Shown piece by piece: positions 14,310 to 25,172 of a stretch of 64,000 bases of DNA; position 1 is the stretch's first letter; each line of letters begins with the position of its first letter. Under the pieces are notes generated by a model. It was not told the DNA's origin. It saw only the letters and a program-made list of their open reading frames with translations, and ran no database searches. The position numbers were made by a program, and so were the translations under genes. The stretch is from Umbilicaria muhlenbergii (taxonomy: Eukaryota; Ascomycota; Lecanoromycetes; Umbilicariales; Umbilicariaceae): positions 10,071,183 to 10,135,182 of the forward strand of contig KK106981.1 in NCBI GenBank assembly GCA_000611775.1, read 5' to 3'.

Positions 14310-14531
14310 ATGACCACGTGCCCGAACCACGACTGTAGGTTCAACAACCTCTCTCCAAGATGAGTGTGCTTCGTACTGCTAGACGGTACCGAGCTCGTGG
14401 TGACACTGCACCAGTTCTGTGAAAGATGCGGAAGGGAGTTACCATTGAAATACGGGCCCCCCATCCAGTGCATCTATCTGTACGCCCCTCAGCAGGCCGC
14501 TCAGCAGGCCCCTCCGCCCGCCCCTCAGTAA
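14310..14531 (+). CDS. Possible 57-residue zinc-ribbon protein
   Basis: Proposed from context, not from a known family. ATG sits in a good fungal context (ACACACATCATGACC) about 230 bp after a strong TATA box. Exons 14310-14334 and 14383-14531 with a 48-nt GTAGGT..CTAG intron give 57 residues. The product begins MTTCPNHD and contains FCERCGREL, a CxxC knuckle, and then a Pro/Gln/Ala-rich end (APQQAAQQAPPP). The first Cys plus the CxxC pair could form part of a zinc ribbon. Without splicing the frame ends after 17 codons. The intron has no obvious branch site, so the model could be wrong. Confidence 0.35.
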
Positions 14532-15287
14532 ACCCCTGAGTAAACCCTGCAGCAATCGCGCTGCTAGTTTGATGGGCGTGTGTGATGGACGAATAGGAAG
14601 TAAGGAAGCAGAGTGGGAGTCAACCGGGGGCTGGACAAGATTGCAAAGGCGGAGAGGGAAGTCTTTTCGGATGGGTTCATACACGGAGCAAGTTGCAGAG
14701 CTGGATCTCTATCAAGAAATGCCGGGTAGTGACGAGTCAAGCTGCGGATGAGCTCAGCTGTACAAACAAGTAGCACGTGCTGAGTAATAGAAATCCATTT
14801 TGCACTTTTGCATGGTCTATTGTAAGATCTTACTTCGGTTGAAATTAGGGTTAGCAGGCTTACATGACCCTTGCTTAGTAATGCATAGCACAGAAAATTG
14901 GATAAGAATACTTGAGGCTATCGCGGCCAGTGCGAGGACCGCTCGTATAAGAGACCGCTCGTATAATACCATGGAATAAGCACTGGTACAACAAGTACCT
15001 CTACTGGACCTGAGAGGCACCCTTGGTTTATACGCACAGTGAATCAACGACGTGATTCCGACAGATTCCCACACTCGTCTCACCTGCACTGAATCGACGA
15101 CTTTAAGCGCTGCTATAAGATCGAGTTGCGAAAAATAATCACTGTAGACATTTCCCTTGCACATGCAAAAATGTCCACTTCCCGCCCATGAGCATGAGAT
15201 ACACGGTGAAAGAGAGGGTAACGGATAAAATCGCAGCCGTTACGGTAACCATGTGACCTGATGAGCTCCAATGACTTCTTTCAGCTC
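14532..15287. other. Intergenic
   Basis: 756 bp with nothing recognisable. It starts with a Pro-codon-like CCCCTCAG/CCCCTGAG direct repeat just after the small gene; the open frames are short and unsupported. Confidence 0.5.
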
Positions 15288-16464
15288 CTACAATTCAGTC
15301 TTCTGGTTTGCTTTGCGCCACGCTTCCTGCATCAGTTTTTGCACCTCGCGCTGAGTAACTCGGTAAAACTCGGTATACCATGGTTGAAAGTCATAGCCGG
15401 ACTGAAATCCCAGGTCTTGCATTTCATAGTCCAACTGACACATATATTGAGCACACTGGTCCATGTCTTCTTTCATCTGCTCTTCAGTAAGGCTGAGGAC
15501 GTAAGCACCGTATAGAGAGATAGGGTATAGCGTAATCCAAAATTTCGGATAAAAGCTGGCCTGTTCCCAGTCGATTATCCCGGCAATGTGCACATGACTC
15601 TTGCCCTCCGTATGCGGTTCATCCGTGCCTGAAAGTATAACGTTGCCTGGGCCCATGTCGCCGTGGTAAAAGTGAAAGTCTGGACCAAATTCGGGCGGCT
15701 CGACGCCATCGGACACCCGACGCATGTGCTCGCGAAGTTCCTCGGCTGTGTAAGGGCCAGGCACAGCGTCACGGCGAAAGTTCGCGCAGCCGACAAGGCA
15801 AGGGTCATGTTGTGGAGATCCGTTGACACGCATAAAGCGGGGTGCCGTTATTTGTGCGATCGATTTCGTGTGAGCTGCGAGCTCCTTGGCCACCTGTATT
15901 TTATCCACGGGCTGGAGCTGGAACCAGGCTCTGTCGAGTAATACGCCGTGTACTCGGCGTGTGATCAAGAAGTATCGATTCCACTCTTTATCAAGCCAAT
16001 AATGGATGGCCTCTGGCACAGGCACTGATGGAGCCCGTTCTCGGACGAGTCTCATGGATTCGCCTTCGAGTTCTTCAAAGGGACTGGTCTTGTGGGTAAC
16101 TTTAATAAAGACGTCGTGGCCAATCTCGAAGATCGCCGTGCGATAATTCCAAGCAATATGAGGGCCATTGGCGGGATCGTACTCTGTTACGGGAAGCCGA
16201 GTGGTCTGAGGGCGGAGACAGTAGTCTACGCCCTTACCATCTTTCCATGTTGTTATGGCGTCACCGGGAGCACTGGCACCATCTGCAATCCGCTCGCAGC
16301 GCATTAAGTTGCCCAGAGCCCATTGACCGTCTCCTGTTGGCCAGATTGACGCCTCGATCCGTGGCTCAACCTTATGTATCCTTGGCACGAATTGCCTGCT
16401 CAACGGGTCAGAATGCTGACTCCTTAAGCGATATAAGTCCAACCTACGGTCCTATTGAGGTCAT
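15288..16464 (-). CDS. Aminoglycoside-phosphotransferase/choline-kinase-like protein
   Basis: Kinase-like fold of the APH family, a group expanded in filamentous ascomycetes, mostly with unknown small-molecule substrates. Exons 16464-16448 (17 nt, MTSIGP) and 16395-15288 give 374 residues; the 52-nt intron is GTAGGT..GAGCAG with a TTCTGAC branch site. This start was chosen because the long frame has no upstream ATG of its own. The catalytic loop FYHGDMGPGNVIL (H-G-D-x4-N) and the metal-binding GIIDWEQASFYPKFW (D-W-E) are intact, as is the upstream VFIKVTHKTSPFEELE. No signal peptide is seen. It probably acts in the cytosol; the substrate cannot be read from sequence. Confidence 0.88.
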
Positions 16465-16757
16465 AGTTGTTGCATAGTAAATCAAGCTGTCGAAGTTGTA
16501 CTGAAGAATACCGACACTTGTTGCAGACCCGCCAGGGCCGCGGGACTTTGTAGGGCCCCGCCAAAGATATCCCTACATTCCACAAACGGGCATATGAACG
16601 CAAGCGTTCCAAGGCTTGTGCTTTCTTTCAAGCATTGATATCACCTATCCAATCGACAGGCTGGTAATATTGGCAGACAAAGGCGGGTTCCGAGCCCGTC
16701 CTTTACCAGCATGCTTTCGACTGCAAACGACTGTTCTCTCATTGTCTCGATATCTAT

Positions 16758-17141
16758 CAGGCCTCGAGAGGAAGCTTTAGGGTGGTGCTCATAAATCCTG
16801 ATGTTCTTGTCTGAATGCATCTGTTTTCAGTGACTCGTAAATATCTGTTCTCTCAAGCGGTCAATGCAACGCCTGAACACCGCTTCCGGGGACTACTCAG
16901 TCGTTGAGCAGGAGTCAGCAGAATAGAGGGTCATGATCTCGGTTTTTTTCAGGCCTCAAGACAAAGGAACACCATATCAGTTTAGTGGGACGCTCAAAAG
17001 TTGTAATGTTTTTGTCCGAATGCTTCCGTTTTTAGCGACTCGTAAATCTCTGTACTCTCAAGCGGTCAATGCAACGCCTGAATACCGTTTTTGGGAACTA
17101 CTCAGTCCTTGAGCAGGAGCCAGCAGAATGAAGGCTCATGT
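16758..17141. repeat. Tandem duplication of a ~200-bp unit
   Basis: Two adjacent copies, each beginning CAGGCCTC (16758 and 16950). They share, among others, TCTCAAGCGGTCAATGCAAC and GACTACTCAGT/GAACTACTCAGT blocks. Copy 2 has about 13 extra bases. Where the copies differ, the changes are mostly C/T or G/A, for example CCGCTTCCGGGG against CCGTTTTTGGGA. No coding frame is shared. Confidence 0.75.
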
Positions 17142-17195
17142 GGTACAAGGACACATCGTTACCGTGTATGTGAAGAATAGAGCATTGAGTATCTG

Positions 17196-17302
17196 CTGGA
17201 TGGATGAGCTGGATGGATGGGCTGGATGGATGGGCTGGATGGATGGGCTGGATGGATGGGCTGGATGGATGGGCTGGATGGATGGGCTGGATGGATGGAT
17301 GT
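17196..17302. repeat. 13-bp minisatellite
   Basis: Seven full copies of CTGGATGGATGGG (the first reads CTGGATGGATGAG) and a partial eighth that ends in extra GGAT units. The six middle copies are identical. Confidence 0.95.
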
Positions 17303-17439
17303 GGTCTTCCCTGGGACACGCAGCTTTAGCGGCGGCTAACCTCCGGCGACTTTTCGCCACTACTATTTACTAACCAAAGTAGGTATTATCTCAAGCCTTG
17401 CGAGGACCCTGTCACGCCCAACAATTCAGTCTTGTGAGA

Positions 17440-17720
17440 AAGAAGATAGCCATGACGGAAGAGTGACAGTAGTGAAATCTGTTAATTAAATCATTACATA
17501 TGAAATTGAGAGGCTCAGATCAACAACATTTAAAAGAGTCAAACATTCGACTGAAAACCAGACAATTTGTTGCAGCGTGACAGTCTTCTCAACTCAATTT
17601 CCGCTCAACATAACACTCAACGAAAGCTTGACAGTCGAACAACTTCACCATCATAACATACTATGTATATCAATAAAATCATGATTGAAATTGTAAAACT
17701 CAACTAAGGCTGAGTTGTGA
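17440..17720. other. AT-rich tract
   Basis: About 280 bp clearly richer in A and T than its flanks, lying between the minisatellite and the 3' end of the rvt gene. GAAATTGAG near 17501 and CTCAATTTC near 17593 form a short inverted pair, which may be chance. Confidence 0.4.
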
Positions 17721-17869
17721 TATTCACCGAGTGCTGTCGGCAGGCTCACCCTGGACTGGCATGGGCAAGCCGCTTTAGCGGACGAGCCGGGTGAGGGGAC
17801 ACTGAGCGAGCATCCAGGCGCGGATATTTAACCACCCCCAAACCCCCAAATCACCAACCCAACCACCAC

Positions 17870-20566
17870 TCACAGCACAATCTGCCACGTAACCTTCTTC
17901 GCCTTCAACAAGCCTATCACCCCCAACGACAACAACCCCTTATCCACAACCCTCAACCCGCCAAAAAGTCTAAACATCTCCTCCGAATACAGCTGCACCA
18001 CCCACCTCCTCTCCGAATCCAGCCTGCCCAACTCCAACTCCAACTCCGGCTGCGCCTTCCCCAGCTGCTTTAAAGCGTCCCCGACAGTCCGCGAGATGGC
18101 CACGTCGTCCTTGCTGTCCGGCAAGGCCATCAGGTCCGCATAGGCGCGTGCGAGTAATCGGCTCGTCTCCTCCCGGTTACGGGTGAAGTCTTCCATGCTC
18201 CAGAAATTGTCCGCGTCGAACGGAGGTGTCTCGCGCCAGCCGTAGATCTCCTGCCAGCGACGTTGTCTGCTGGATGCACTCAGGGCTTCGAAGCGGGATT
18301 TGGCGTCGCGGTATGCTTCTCGTTCGTCTTCGAAGAACCTTTGCATGCGCGTTTCTGGCTTCTGGTATATTTTATTGCGGACGACGAGGAATGGGATGAA
18401 AGGGTTCTGGAGGCCGAGGCCGCCAAGCTGCTCGTGTAGGAAGAGGAAGCCGTCTGGAATGTCCTTGACATGGAAGCGCTCGGCGATGAGGTTCTTCAGA
18501 TACTCGGTCACGCTGCTGCTGCTGCTGTTGGTGTCTGTACTGAACAGCTCTTGCTGCATGTGTTGGTGCGTTTGCAGGATACTGTCGACGTGTGTTTGGC
18601 CGAAGCAATTGGCTGGCTGCCCAAACGTTGAATTGAAGAATCGACCGATACAGCTGTTCCATGTCTGTACCCAGGCAAAGATACTGGTGCAAGCCGACAG
18701 TTGCTTCTTAAGCTGTTTGGTATGTGCACCAACCTGACTTTGGTCAATGATCCATGTTCCGGAGTTAGGGTCCAGCCTCAAGAGGCCAATCACAACATCA
18801 ACGTCAGGCAATGACTTGGGAAGATACTCAGCCTCTTCGGGTTCGTCGGTCAAGCATACCGAACCCGTCTTTTTCTTGTCAAACTCCAAACCTGTAACCC
18901 TAGCGAATCCTTGCATTGTTTGCCATGCTCGTGCACAATCCTGGGGATTCCCTGACAGCCAAAGATCGTCGTGAAGCCGGTACAGGAACATCCCCGTCTC
19001 CTGGTTGACAGCAAAGTCCATGGCAGACAGGACCATCTCTCCGAAAATGTTCTCCAACGCATGTGCCACAGGCATGCCCCGCTTCCGTATGCGAACTTCT
19101 CCATCCCCTCCACCTGACTCCCCAGCCAATCGCAATGGTGTTTCGAGGAACTTCCTGAAGAACGATATCCAAGTCTCCGACACGCCGTACAACCGAAGGA
19201 CGGCCAGCAGCGTTGAATGTGAAAGGCTAGTGCCGAACCACTGCAGGTCGGACTGCACCACCGCAACCTTTCCATGCAATGATCGCCGAACCAAGACTTC
19301 AGTGGCAAGTTGCCGTAGAAGCTGCTGTCTGATCTGCAGCGGTGTCTTGAGGTTGCCTGGAACGTCCGCCTCGTCATCATCATAACTAAGCTGAGGTCGT
19401 CGATCGTTGACGCTAGCCCAGACGAAAAGAAACCAACCACATACGTCTCGTATCGCTCAGACGCAAATCCCTTTCCCGGTTCTCTACCCATGAAATACCT
19501 GTGCTTCTCAAGGTCTTTGTGGGATAAAGCTTGCGCTCCTTTCCATACCTTATCGTTGCCGACGAAGTCTCGGAAAATCTGCTTGGCTTGGATAGCCCAT
19601 GTTATGCCAATGTAGTGGAGGAAAATGGCCTGGAGGACGTCTTCGTCCATTATAACCCGGTACTTTCCATTCAGCTGCCGGCGAGGCTCGACTGGAATAC
19701 CGCGCATCCCAAGCCTAATTCTAAAGATCAGCGAAGCGCATGTTGAGGACATCAGCAATTTCGTCGAGCACAACGTTGTTATTCGAAAATTCCGTCAGAA
19801 GGCCTCTTTTGGTTCCGCTCAGTAGATCGTTGTGCTGTAGACCAGCGATGCACCATTTCAATACATGTCGGCTGAACGGAGCTAAATCGGTCTCCTCGCT
19901 GAAGCGTCGCATACCGCCCCGCAATCGTTGAAGGGCTTTCTTTGAATGCTCATCGGCGAAGAAAGAACTTAAGTAATTGTCGATCTCAATCTCATCGGTC
20001 TCGAGTGCGGTAAATACAGTGGACTCGAACTTATCCTGCAGCTGCTTGAGGCGGTCTCGATCAATTAGCTCATAAGTATCGTTGTCGCCCAAAGAGTCGT
20101 TCTGTGTCGTGGCTGCTTCTCCGATGCTGGTCGGTGGGGGGCTCAGCCATTCATTCAGAAGGCGTGAGTAAAGATTCGCATAGTCGAGCTTGCGGCTCTC
20201 CTGATCGAGCTTCAGACGTAACTGTTGCTCATAGCTTTCCAACATACCGGATGAAATGGACGGATCATGCTTCGCCTGCGCGAGCCAGCTACCAATGTTG
20301 TTCAAAGATGTATAATCGTGGCGGTCACAGTTCCAACTCGCATTGCTAGCTGAGCCATAATATAACGAAGATTTCTGCCCGGGAAGCTGTGCTACATCGG
20401 AGAGCAGCTGAAGGACTCTTGTCCTTTGATCATCAGTGCTTCTGGCCGATGTAGAGATCCTATCCTTCTCAGCCTCAAACGACCTGCGTTGCTTGGCTAA
20501 CTCTTGAACCTTGGTGGACGAGATAGAATACAATGTATTTGAAAGGAGGTCGCTTGGTGATGCCAT
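17870..20566 (-). pseudogene. rvt: Cellular reverse-transcriptase-related gene (rvt), frame locally broken
   Basis: Matches the rvt family: single-copy host genes of reverse-transcriptase ancestry, not part of a mobile element, with nucleotide-polymerising activity shown for fungal members. Start at 20566 (ACCACAATGGCATC), a strong context, begins an N-terminal helical region (STKVQELAKQRRSFEAEKDR). A 59-nt intron (19444-19386, GTATGT..TTAG) restores YETYDDDEADVP. Catalytic Asp of motif A is in VVQSDLQWFG (~19248); motif C is LYRLHDDLWL (~18968); the C-terminus KKVTWQIVL is complete. Total about 880 residues. Between about 19723 and 19690, just after EIADVLNMRFADL, the frame shows two TAG codons and a one-base shift, and no intron with compatible phase removes them while keeping the conserved block. 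Either a young pseudogene or a sequence error. Everything downstream of this patch is open. Confidence 0.8.
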
Positions 20567-22376
20567 TGTGGTAGCCGGTTTCAAAGTTGGTATAGAAGTA
20601 GACAAAGAGTTGAGACTTCTGTCCGGTACAAGCTCGCACTTTCTTGGAGAAACATGGCTTGGCCTTATACGGCAGATGTTGCATTGAGTCATAGCAATAG
20701 TAAACTGCAGCTAGTCATAGCCTTGATAAAAAGCTGTAGCTTATACCACTCATGTTGACAGTTCTTCCCCCAGAAGAATTAAATTGAATCTCAGAGTGCT
20801 GTCCAGAGTGCTGCCTAAAATCCTTCGAACGATCAGAGCTGCCAACGAGAACCCGTCGCATAGTCATGTTGAGTCACTGGCATCTCGGACCTCAAATCGA
20901 AGAGGGCGATAGAAGGCAAGAGACGTCCATCGTCCACCTGCGTAGCACAATGCCGCCAGCATTGATGTGTAACCAATCGACTTTATGGCTTCCGGCATCG
21001 ATCGCGGCCTGTTGTAACCGAACCGACTTCAAGATGCTAGTGTGAGTAATGGCTTGTCATACATGACATATGGCACTGCTAGACCTAGAGCTGTTGATCA
21101 AGCTAGAGCAGCAATGAAACGTAGGCTGAAAAGGTACATGGTAACAACTTAGAAGTCTGATCTGGAACAAGAAATCAATCATTGGATCTAAAAAACAACA
21201 GTAGAAACAGTATCACGTTCCCAGCAGATTAGCATCCCATCCCATATGCAAGTGGGAATCTTGCCGGGTAGTAACTTTTGCTCATACCTCGTGGGCGGAG
21301 CAAACACCAGCACAACCCATTCTTCATCGCCAAATCGCATACTGATGGCAAGCATCTTACACCCATGGCACTGAGCAGTGGGATGCGTAAGAAGGCTAAT
21401 GTAGGATGATCGTAATCAAACGCTACTCCCGAGCGCTGAGGCTATTTTCAGTTTTGCTCGTGATGCCAATATCATACCCCTCAGGCAAGCCCCAAGGTGA
21501 GCTGCGAAGCTATGTCCGTCCACATGGAAAACAGCAGACCCGGTCGGGATTAGTATCAGTGATGGTACCGTTATCCCTGTGCCTCCCTGTCCCACTTTCC
21601 CCACACCTAGCCAGAGGGTATTCGGAAGTGGTGAGGAAGAAAGGAATTTAGGCAGGAATATAGGCTTGGTTGTGGTACGGCTGGGAGGATTACGATGGTG
21701 CTTAGATAACCACAAAACCTGTTCAGTGTATTTGCACACCACTCGGGCTTGTCGTATAGATAAAGAGTCATCCACCATATTAAACGATTAGAACTCTTGA
21801 TGTGCCTAGCAATAATCCAGCTACAGAGGCCTTGCGGCCAGATCTCAGGTACGTCGAGGCGTAGGACTTGGTCAACCAAAACATTATGCAAGCACCCTTG
21901 CATGCTCAAACTACTTCAACGCATGCGAGGATGTTGACCGATTAGCATCGGGATTATATACTCTGTCTAACAGGTACCTTGCACCCCCCCACCCCATAAG
22001 CACAGTAGGCCTCCCCCTGAGCCTTTCACATAAATGTGTCTTGGGGCCAAACGCCAGTGCAATGACATTAACGAAACAAGAGTAACCCCCGTACGCAGAA
22101 AGACACCGGTCTATGATGAGGGTTGGAGGATAGGTGAGAGAATGCCTTCGCAGGAAGGATGCAGGACTGTTAAATTACCTAGCGAGAAAAAGAAAGGGTA
22201 GCGGCCGATGCCTAAGCATGAGTGAGGAAGAAAACGCAGGTAAGACTCCATCACGATGACCTCAGTGGCCCTCAGTTTCCCTCCCTTCGCATATGAACAA
22301 TTACAGTACTGTCGTATCATCATAGAGAACTGTTGTCCCTCAAGTGCGTTGACACAAAGTTCTGACGCCGCTGCTC
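20567..22376. other. Intergenic, rvt promoter side
   Basis: 1.8 kb with no gene or repeat that I can support. The longest open frames (about 100-120 codons around 21400-21900) overlap on opposite strands and lack motifs. Confidence 0.55.
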
Positions 22377-25172
22377 TCACGGCTGCCTTTCATCCACAAC
22401 GGGCCCCTTGCCTTTGACATCTCTCGTTTTCCGCACATCCAAAGGTGTCCCACTCCGGCTTGGTACTCGTGACCTTTGCATTGTCTCTGGCAAGGTTTCA
22501 TTACTCATCATACCGTTCTGCCTCATCATGTCCTGGCGTCGCTGATCTGCTTCATGCCAGGCTTGCACATCCCTGCTACTCCAGCTGGCTCGATGAATAC
22601 GCGCCCCGAAGGGAACGTTTGTGTACGACGCCTGCGACCGCAGACTATGTGCACGGCTACCATGTCCTGCACCTGATTTGACTGAGACACGTGACATGGT
22701 TGGGTCGTTCTCGTCCGCGACGAATTTTTCGTCCTCGTCTTCGATCTTGGGGCAACGGCGTACGGCGGACACGTTGAAATATGGTTCTTTTGGCTCTTCC
22801 GGAACAGGTGGAGGTGGTGCTGGAATGTCAGGAGCCGCTTTAGCCAGGTGTGCAAAGTACTTCTTCCGGAGGGGTGCCCACTTCCGGGGCTTGAAGTCCT
22901 CCCGGTTACGGGTTACCGACATGTAACTTGAGATAGCACCAACGGCGATCGCAATCAAAAGGACGACCGTGAGTATTCCTTGAATGACGATAATGACTAT
23001 TCCTATAACCGTTGTCGTGATCCGGGCGAGATTGAATCGAGGGTCAAAAGCCGCAGATAAAGCGACGGTAGCAACCTTGCTGAACCCCAGAAAGTAAACC
23101 ATAATAGCGTTTAGGCGAGCACCTTCGAATGGCCTCATGGCTACAATGGTAACCAAAGCGATGAACTCAACGATTAGAAGACCGAATACCTGGGTCAGAG
23201 GGTGCCCCGCAGCACCACCGAAGAAACAGGCTCGGATAAATTCATAGAACAACCAGACAGCGAAGAACCACCATCTCGTCCGCCGGAAACGCGCAGATAG
23301 CCAACCAAATTTGTGGATGTAATCCTCGTCCTCGTGGACCGGTATTGGTTGAAAGTCACCTGCAACGTAATGGAGCCTCCACCAAGGTAAGGAACCTGAG
23401 GAGATCTTTGGCGATGACTTCTCAGACCTTTGACTTTCCCGCTGGAACCCATACCACGGGATGAAGCCAACAGCTTTGGTCTTCTCGAAGTGCAGTCGGT
23501 CGGGACTCGAAGCATATCGACCAAAACGCAGTCGATAGAAACAAGCATAGCCTGCAACAGCAAATAGCCCAAACAGGAAGATGATGAAGACAATTGCGGC
23601 AATGGCCGTGACTCCAACCGAGCCCTTGAACGTGAATTGAAAGAGCGTGAGGAAGACCATCATGAAGAATCCGATAAACATGGTCCGGAGAACTGCCGAA
23701 CCAGTGAACCCGAGCCAGTGGTTTCTAAAGTGTAATAGCCTATCTTTTTTTAACACCTTGATCATACTCAGGCCTTCCAACAACCATTTGAACACGATCA
23801 TCAAGCCTATAACGATAGCAACCAGGATTAGAAACCATAGGAAACCAGTTAGGAATGCATTGGAAGCGGGAATGCCCTGTTCTGCAAGCGTGCCGGCGAA
23901 GCCAGAGAAGTTGCCAGGTAGGGGTAGACCTGGCTTGACAGGTGCTCCGTACCACGAGTAGCCATCTGTTGAATTGACCAGGGTTCGGCGCAAAAGTGCA
24001 CGCTTCAACACATTCGACTTTACCAGTGCATCTACATCGTCGGCCGCCATCAGATCACGATGGTAGATGTGTGTCGCCAGCTCACTGGAGACAGCCTTTT
24101 TGTATATCGAAGCGATGGAATAGCCTCCACCTAGGTCGTTAGAATTCGTTCCTGAGCTAGCTGCTCCCACCATGCTTAGGTTGCCTCTGTTGCTTCCAAT
24201 CAGTTGGTTGATGCTATTCTGCATCTTGTCGCTGTAGATCATTCCGGCGCTCCAAGCGAAGTTACTCCAGAACGCTGGCAACACACTGGGCCAGTTCATC
24301 GAAAGAGCGCCTGTGAAGAAGACGTGTTGAAAGACCGAGAATACCACGAAGACAGAAAGCGAGTGAGCGTAGTGCGTGCGCATTGTAGGAATGTGGTTTC
24401 CGTAGACGGCTGTAGCGAATGAGGCCAATAGCGCTATGAAGGCGAACACACCCAGGACCGAACCCACCGCTGCGGGATGGGAGAATGTGTTTCCGTTTGT
24501 AACGACTGCGGAATAGCACCCTACTTCCGACTCAGTGGAGTTGGCGAATATCCGTAGAATAGCTTGTCCTTCGAAATCCGGAATGGTCAGGGCGATTGCA
24601 GGTATACCAGCAACGTCTGACTGAGCAACTGGGATTATGCCATTAGCTTCGATGGGCACGCTGCCATTCATCGGACATAGACTAGAGCTTGTCAGCCTTT
24701 GAGAACAACCGAGTGGAGAAGGGTATTACCTGGCAATGTTGGCATCACAAGGGTTGAAAGTGAGGTCAAAGCGACTCTCCCCGTAAGCAAAAACGCCAAT
24801 GTACACTGCAAGCCGTAAGCCATGGATATCATAGGATTGGGCCGGGGTCTTCATACTCATCAAGCTTTCGTTCTTAACCGCCGTGTTGCCCTCCAGATGA
24901 AAGAGTACCGTCATGTTGTCCTTGTAGTAGGCCGCATCAAACCGGGTTACATTAATGAGCGAGCTCCCTAGGCAATCACCAAAATTCGCCGTGTACAGTG
25001 ATGGTCTTCTGTCATCCAGTAGGTATATGGTGTCTCCCGTATTTGAAGTCGTCTCGACCACTTGGGTATCCTGCGCAGCAGAGGTGTATTGTAAGAGCGA
25101 CAGGAAAGAGAGGAAAAGAAAGAAAACGCCGGGCCATGATGCATCGCGAAAATCAAGTCGTGGAGAAGCCAT
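22377..25172 (-). CDS. TRP-like/FLC family membrane protein
   Basis: Fungal TRP-like (flavin carrier, FLC/Pkd2) protein. Relatives sit in the ER or plasma membrane and act in calcium homeostasis and cell-wall integrity; in yeast they were also linked to FAD import. Exons 25172-24730 and 24681-22377 with a 48-nt GTAATA..CTAG intron give 915 residues. A signal peptide (SWPGVFFLFLSFLSLLQYTSA) is followed by a Cys-containing lumenal ML-like domain to about residue 200. Then come about nine hydrophobic segments (for example VGSVLGVFAFIALLASFATA and ITTTVIGIVIIVIQGILTVV). The cytosolic tail after ~690 is Pro-, Ser- and Arg-rich. ATG 25172 is the only start preceding the signal sequence. Compared with yeast Flc2 (about 780 residues) the tail is longer. 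Confidence 0.93.

Follow-up and report, generated by a model that had tools for sequence, protein, structure and literature searches.

Does the reverse transcriptase (RT)-related gene on the minus strand at 17870-20566 encode a complete, working host protein, as its first-pass annotation held? Positions refer to the window, that is, the whole 64,000-nt stretch of Umbilicaria muhlenbergii DNA analysed here. Genes of the rvt type are widespread but patchy in their distribution, and their cellular role is unclear. The gene at this locus is presumably of the kind of domesticated RT-related gene studied in Neurospora crassa (rvt; Gladyshev and Arkhipova 2011). Excerpts of PMC3520738 describe N. crassa RVT as non-essential, strongly induced on inhibition of protein synthesis and active as a terminal transferase in vitro, and excerpts of PMC10680173 ascribe to rvts a template-free polymerisation and a stress relief that needs intact catalytic residues. 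According to PMC5718144, rvt is alone among RT groups in having members in both bacteria and eukaryotes, and a big loop separates its RT motifs 2 and 3. The same letters have other uses: in the excerpted parts of PMC8934634, PMC4920403 and PMC10799480, RVT denotes a Pfam domain or transposon genes.

Gene layout and family identity

The gene runs from an ATG at 20566 to a stop ending at 17870, as annotated, and all three protein motifs quoted for it are present. Its coding sequence consists of three open stretches on the minus strand, here called exons 1 to 3. Exon 1 (19724-20566; 281 codons from the ATG) corresponds to the N-terminal extension of the rvt protein, and its 281 residues align with positions 3-223 of the PADLOC profile RT_UG37 (E 8e-4). 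Exon 2 (19445-19707) begins at an internal ATG at 19707, reads GIPVEPRRQLNGKYRV...LQAIFLHYIG and covers the RT fingers region; its frame is open from 19794 down to 18850 and contains RRQLNGKYRV as well as LQAIFLHYIG. A frame-restoring intron of 59 nt (GTATGT...GCTTAG, 19386-19444) is predicted from the sequence and would join exon 2 to exon 3 (17870-19385; 504 codons plus stop), which encodes the palm, the thumb and the C-terminus with KKVTWQIVL (17899-17873). RT motif A, VVQSDLQWFG, lies at 19232-19261 and motif C, LYRLHDDLWL, at 18956-18985, with KRGMPVAHALEN between them at 19049-19084 as the likely motif B region (named by eye, from its position). The claim that the catalytic residues are kept holds, as both the Asp of motif A (QSDLQWFG) and the double Asp of motif C (HDD) were found. 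LQAIFLHYIG and the motif A Asp are 99 residues apart, a distance equivalent to the large RT2-RT3 loop when motif 2 is aligned by eye, against about 42 residues over a comparable interval in a bacterial group II RT (L018). The N-terminal region had been described as coiled, and rvt genes have a coiled-coil N-terminus; a crude and weak heptad test of the 281 N-terminal residues lends this no support, as 162 of 200 shuffles reached their score. An AlphaFold2 single-sequence model was unusable (mean pLDDT 34.9). We note that the RRQLNGKYRV segment of exon 2 (~19706-19583) repeatedly gave a weak match to a GajB helicase profile (10-14 bits), which was taken as chance.

A profile search had been proposed as a check on the family, and the closest profile is RT_UG37 rather than any LINE or LTR polymerase. 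RT_UG37 (PDLC03776) represents a bacterial RT group labelled DRT, and the profile spans the long N-terminal extension too. A read-through protein with X at both of the in-frame stops described below scored 187.7 bits against it (E 7e-56) in two aligned stretches; the next family was UG17 with 32.2 bits, a lead of ~155 bits for UG37. Exon 3 alone gave 149.5 bits (E 2.6e-44; scored on 17870-19411), and exons 1 and 3 together cover profile positions 3 to 657 of 778; neither exon 2 alone nor the tail of exon 1 alone had a UG37 match in the profile search. Other collections gave little: the best NCBIfam match was a group II RT profile at 23.1 bits (cut-off 300), the PHROGs profile search returned nothing convincing, and the PDB sequence search returned two non-RT matches only, at chance level. 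Other RTs provide a yardstick for these values. Against UG37, RTs from a single Verrucomicrobiota genome score no higher than 33.3 bits; a Verrucomicrobiota RT gives 59.3 bits to UG37 and 83.2 to UG19; a UG17 RT encoded on a Rhodococcus plasmid gives 29.8 bits to UG37, against 384 to UG17; and other RTs score up to 59.9 bits against UG37. Because these yardstick RTs score far lower on UG37, the gene is grouped with UG37, and this applies to its N-terminal extension too; we infer that UG37 contains the bacterial rvts. The function of the family may differ from what its defence label, DRT, implies. As a side observation, an anti-phage profile of PADLOC (PDLC03776) thus recognises a fungal host gene.

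Closer relatives were sought in several collections. No relative was found among viral contigs; a pattern search of genome contigs yielded 41 stretches and a search with the DNA pattern for HDD.W yielded 7, with no relative among the former and, by tblastn and translation, no RT among the latter; the plasmid search gave one match, a UG17 RT. Genomes of three bacterial phyla were scanned with UG37 at E <= 1e-15, a threshold at which control genomes were also silent; 0 of 396, 0 of 398 and 2 of 387 had a match. Neither of the two matches extends beyond the RT core; L017 is closest to UG19, and L018 looks by eye like the RT of a group II intron. A literature search under the term UG37 returned no relevant paper.

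Copy number and genomic surroundings

The source genome itself (34.8 Mb in 7 contigs) was searched for copies of the gene. Exon 3, exon 1 and the UG37 profile each map to one genomic place, and the profile found no second place in the whole genome at E <= 10. The single-copy status claimed for the gene is therefore upheld, and the many copies that would have marked it as a mobile element were looked for and only the one was found. RVT_1, by comparison, has 877 candidates in the same genome, of which 150 were scored. The absence of LTRs was likewise confirmed: within 14500-24000 no repeat of at least 22 nt flanks the gene, no inverted repeat pair was found, and the three families of direct repeats (a 13-nt minisatellite, a 160-nt pair and a 28-nt pair) all lie below 17440. 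The minisatellite, just downstream of the gene at 17195-17311, is built of 13-nt units (GCTGGATGGATGG), ~8 of them in register, and the 160-nt direct repeats (16776-16935 and 16981-17140) are 83% identical and 205 nt apart. Among the proposed neighbours, a flippase, a TRP/FLC channel and a GATA factor were located.

On these results it is next to inconceivable that a LINE or LTR polymerase has degenerated into this gene. Such an origin could draw on the match to Pfam RVT_1, which is weak (19 bits, under the cut-off of 29.6). It is opposed by a UG37 match that spans the N-terminal extension as well as the RT core, by the single copy, by the silence of UG37 elsewhere in a genome in which 150 RVT_1 matches were scored, and by a CpG content that is not depleted (observed/expected 0.96 in the gene and 0.91 in the window, hence no CpG loss).

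A clustered break in the reading frame

The claim of a complete, working host gene was not borne out. At 19723-19699 the frame is interrupted by two TAG codons and also shifts, which the first-pass annotation overlooked. The first stop is an in-frame TAG at 19721-19723, which with the preceding codon reads CTT_T.AG_A, and the second is an in-frame TAG at 19715-19717. The heptamer CTT_T.AG_A resembles the site of bacterial release factor 2. Beyond both stops the first frame continues with codons for AWDA (19703-19714), and a change of frame by one base falls within 19699-19709, placed there by the frames and by the apparent coding past of both sides. The first frame thus reads DEIADVLNMRFADL, TAG, N, TAG and AWDA, after which the protein resumes one frame off with GIPVEPRRQLNGKYRV.

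Residues within the break carry family signal. A 180-residue segment across it, with X at the stops and the two frames joined, scored 33.2 bits against UG37 (profile positions 148-275), and removal of the eight bridge residues lowered this to 15.4 bits. With all eight bridge residues masked as X the score was 24.3 bits; sparing only the bridge Asn gave 25.4 bits, restoring the Trp of AWDA alone gave 31.4 bits (+7) and swapping Trp and Asp gave 25.3 bits. The Trp therefore stands past both stops at a position conserved in UG37, from which it follows that the bridge was once translated in the first frame and that the stops and the shift came later. On this sequence signal, the stretch across the break is formerly protein-coding.

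The lesions are also tightly grouped. The chance that three lesions fall within 25 of 2,550 nt is 0.00026; with the remainder of the gene open, the cluster therefore fits a single event or a single local error better than slow, ordinary decay. A template-switch source was sought within 1.5 kb of the break, and no 12-16 nt match turned up when up to one mismatch was allowed.

Repeat-induced point mutation (RIP) was considered as a gene-wide cause and rejected: the composite index is -0.72 in the gene against a window mean of -0.60, and it exceeds 0 in 2 of 254 half-kb windows. By eye, 149 of the 150 scored RVT_1 matches (of 877 candidates) have an in-frame stop; stops in the retroelement copies are mostly TGA, and those of the lesion are TAG. 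Two retroelement copies (L019 and L021) have many TGA stops and CpG observed/expected values of 0.16 and 0.15, a CpG-directed pattern resembling RIP or deamination, and the one scored RVT_1 copy without a stop (L020) is not CpG-poor (0.88).

Origin and consequences of the break

The gene is probably an rvt allele or pseudogene that lost its function recently, through the lesion cluster within 25 nt. We infer both that the break truly exists and that it disables the gene; the tight clustering of the lesions and the lack of a RIP or CpG-loss signature count against this account. In it, the lesions at 19723-19699 (two TAG stops in frame plus a shift of one base) would have broken the frame, probably recently, in an ancestor that, by analogy with characterised rvts, was most likely non-essential and stress-induced and added nucleotides without a template by means of its preserved catalytic Asp residues. 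From the assembled sequence, translation would end after 281 residues with no RT domain; an alternative start at the internal ATG at 19707 could yield an RT of 592 residues lacking the N-terminal extension. Judged from its sequence, the gene is an rvt by descent, single copy, with catalytic residues kept and frame broken, and it is filed as an rvt by descent rather than as a working rvt because its reading frame is not open. A near-whole copy with a single clustered break would illustrate one step towards the patchiness of rvts, the fresh loss of a gene still intact in its other parts, and a broken allele would serve as a natural knockout against intact strains.

Three readings that spare the protein were weighed against a disabled gene. 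The first is an intact gene whose break is a local error of sequencing or assembly, a reading suggested by three lesions in 25 nt in a gene that is otherwise open, with normal motifs and CpG. However, the other long frames near the gene (flippase, TRP/FLC channel, BTB, GATA factor and others) are open and the introns inspected by eye look ordinary, and any error must have introduced two stops plus a shift at once. The open neighbouring frames argue against a generally poor assembly and leave room for a local fault, so that a local error is unlikely but deserves to be kept in mind.

Splicing is a second way to spare the protein, in that an intron with unusual splice sites could take out the stops and restore the frame. 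Clustered stops and shifts are typical of introns, and GCTGATCTTTAG, before the first TAG, looks by eye like the 3' end of one. Pairs were drawn with a donor anywhere between codon 100 of the first frame and the first TAG, a length of 38-259 nt and a resulting frame of >700 residues; 98 such pairs restore the frame (34 GT-AG and 64 GC-AG). Of these, 17 were scored (the shortest first, plus better-looking longer ones); none of the 17 spliced products keeps the UG37 match, which the read-through protein does keep. The GT donors near the break (GTCCTC, GTTGTG and GTGCTC) are weak by eye. An odd intron is accordingly improbable.

The third possibility is a +1 ribosomal frameshift at CTT_T.AG_A that makes full-length RVT. 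Where the last sense codon meets the stop the sequence is CTT TAG A, and a +1 slip at this point enters the next open frame. CUU is the P-site codon at yeast Ty1, ABP140 and EST3, and yeast antizyme shifts at a stop, according to excerpts of PMC12661321 and PMC5009743. The slipped product, however, scores 21.4 bits against UG37, below the 24.3 bits of neutral X residues, and loses the conserved Trp; a slip further upstream leaves no match. Programmed frameshifting is thus very doubtful. Equally far-fetched is its extension, in which full-length RVT would arise only via the +1 frameshift and slow termination or translation stress, the reported inducer of N. crassa RVT, would switch the enzyme on, making it a translation-sensing domesticated reverse transcriptase. 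Were the break bypassed in translation, RVT would be tied directly to translation stress.

Comparison with known systems

The gene can be set beside four kinds of known system. With the rvt genes, as described in excerpts of PMC3520738, PMC5718144 and PMC10680173, it shares a single-copy host-type gene, RT motifs, long N- and C-terminal parts, a long RT2-RT3 stretch and the catalytic Asp residues; it differs in a frame broken by two TAG codons and a frame change. With PADLOC RT_UG37 it shares the 187.7-bit match across two stretches, but here the gene is fungal, has a predicted intron and has a broken frame. Other DRT families and group II intron RTs have the RT core motifs in common with it, but their scores are at most 33.9 bits and concern the RT core only. 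Among genes read by +1 frameshifting, yeast EST3 and ABP140 have a CUU codon that ends the first frame and yeast antizyme has a stop codon at the shift point, and in all three the next frame is +1, as here; unlike in those genes, the slipped product at this locus fits its family worse than neutral residues do.
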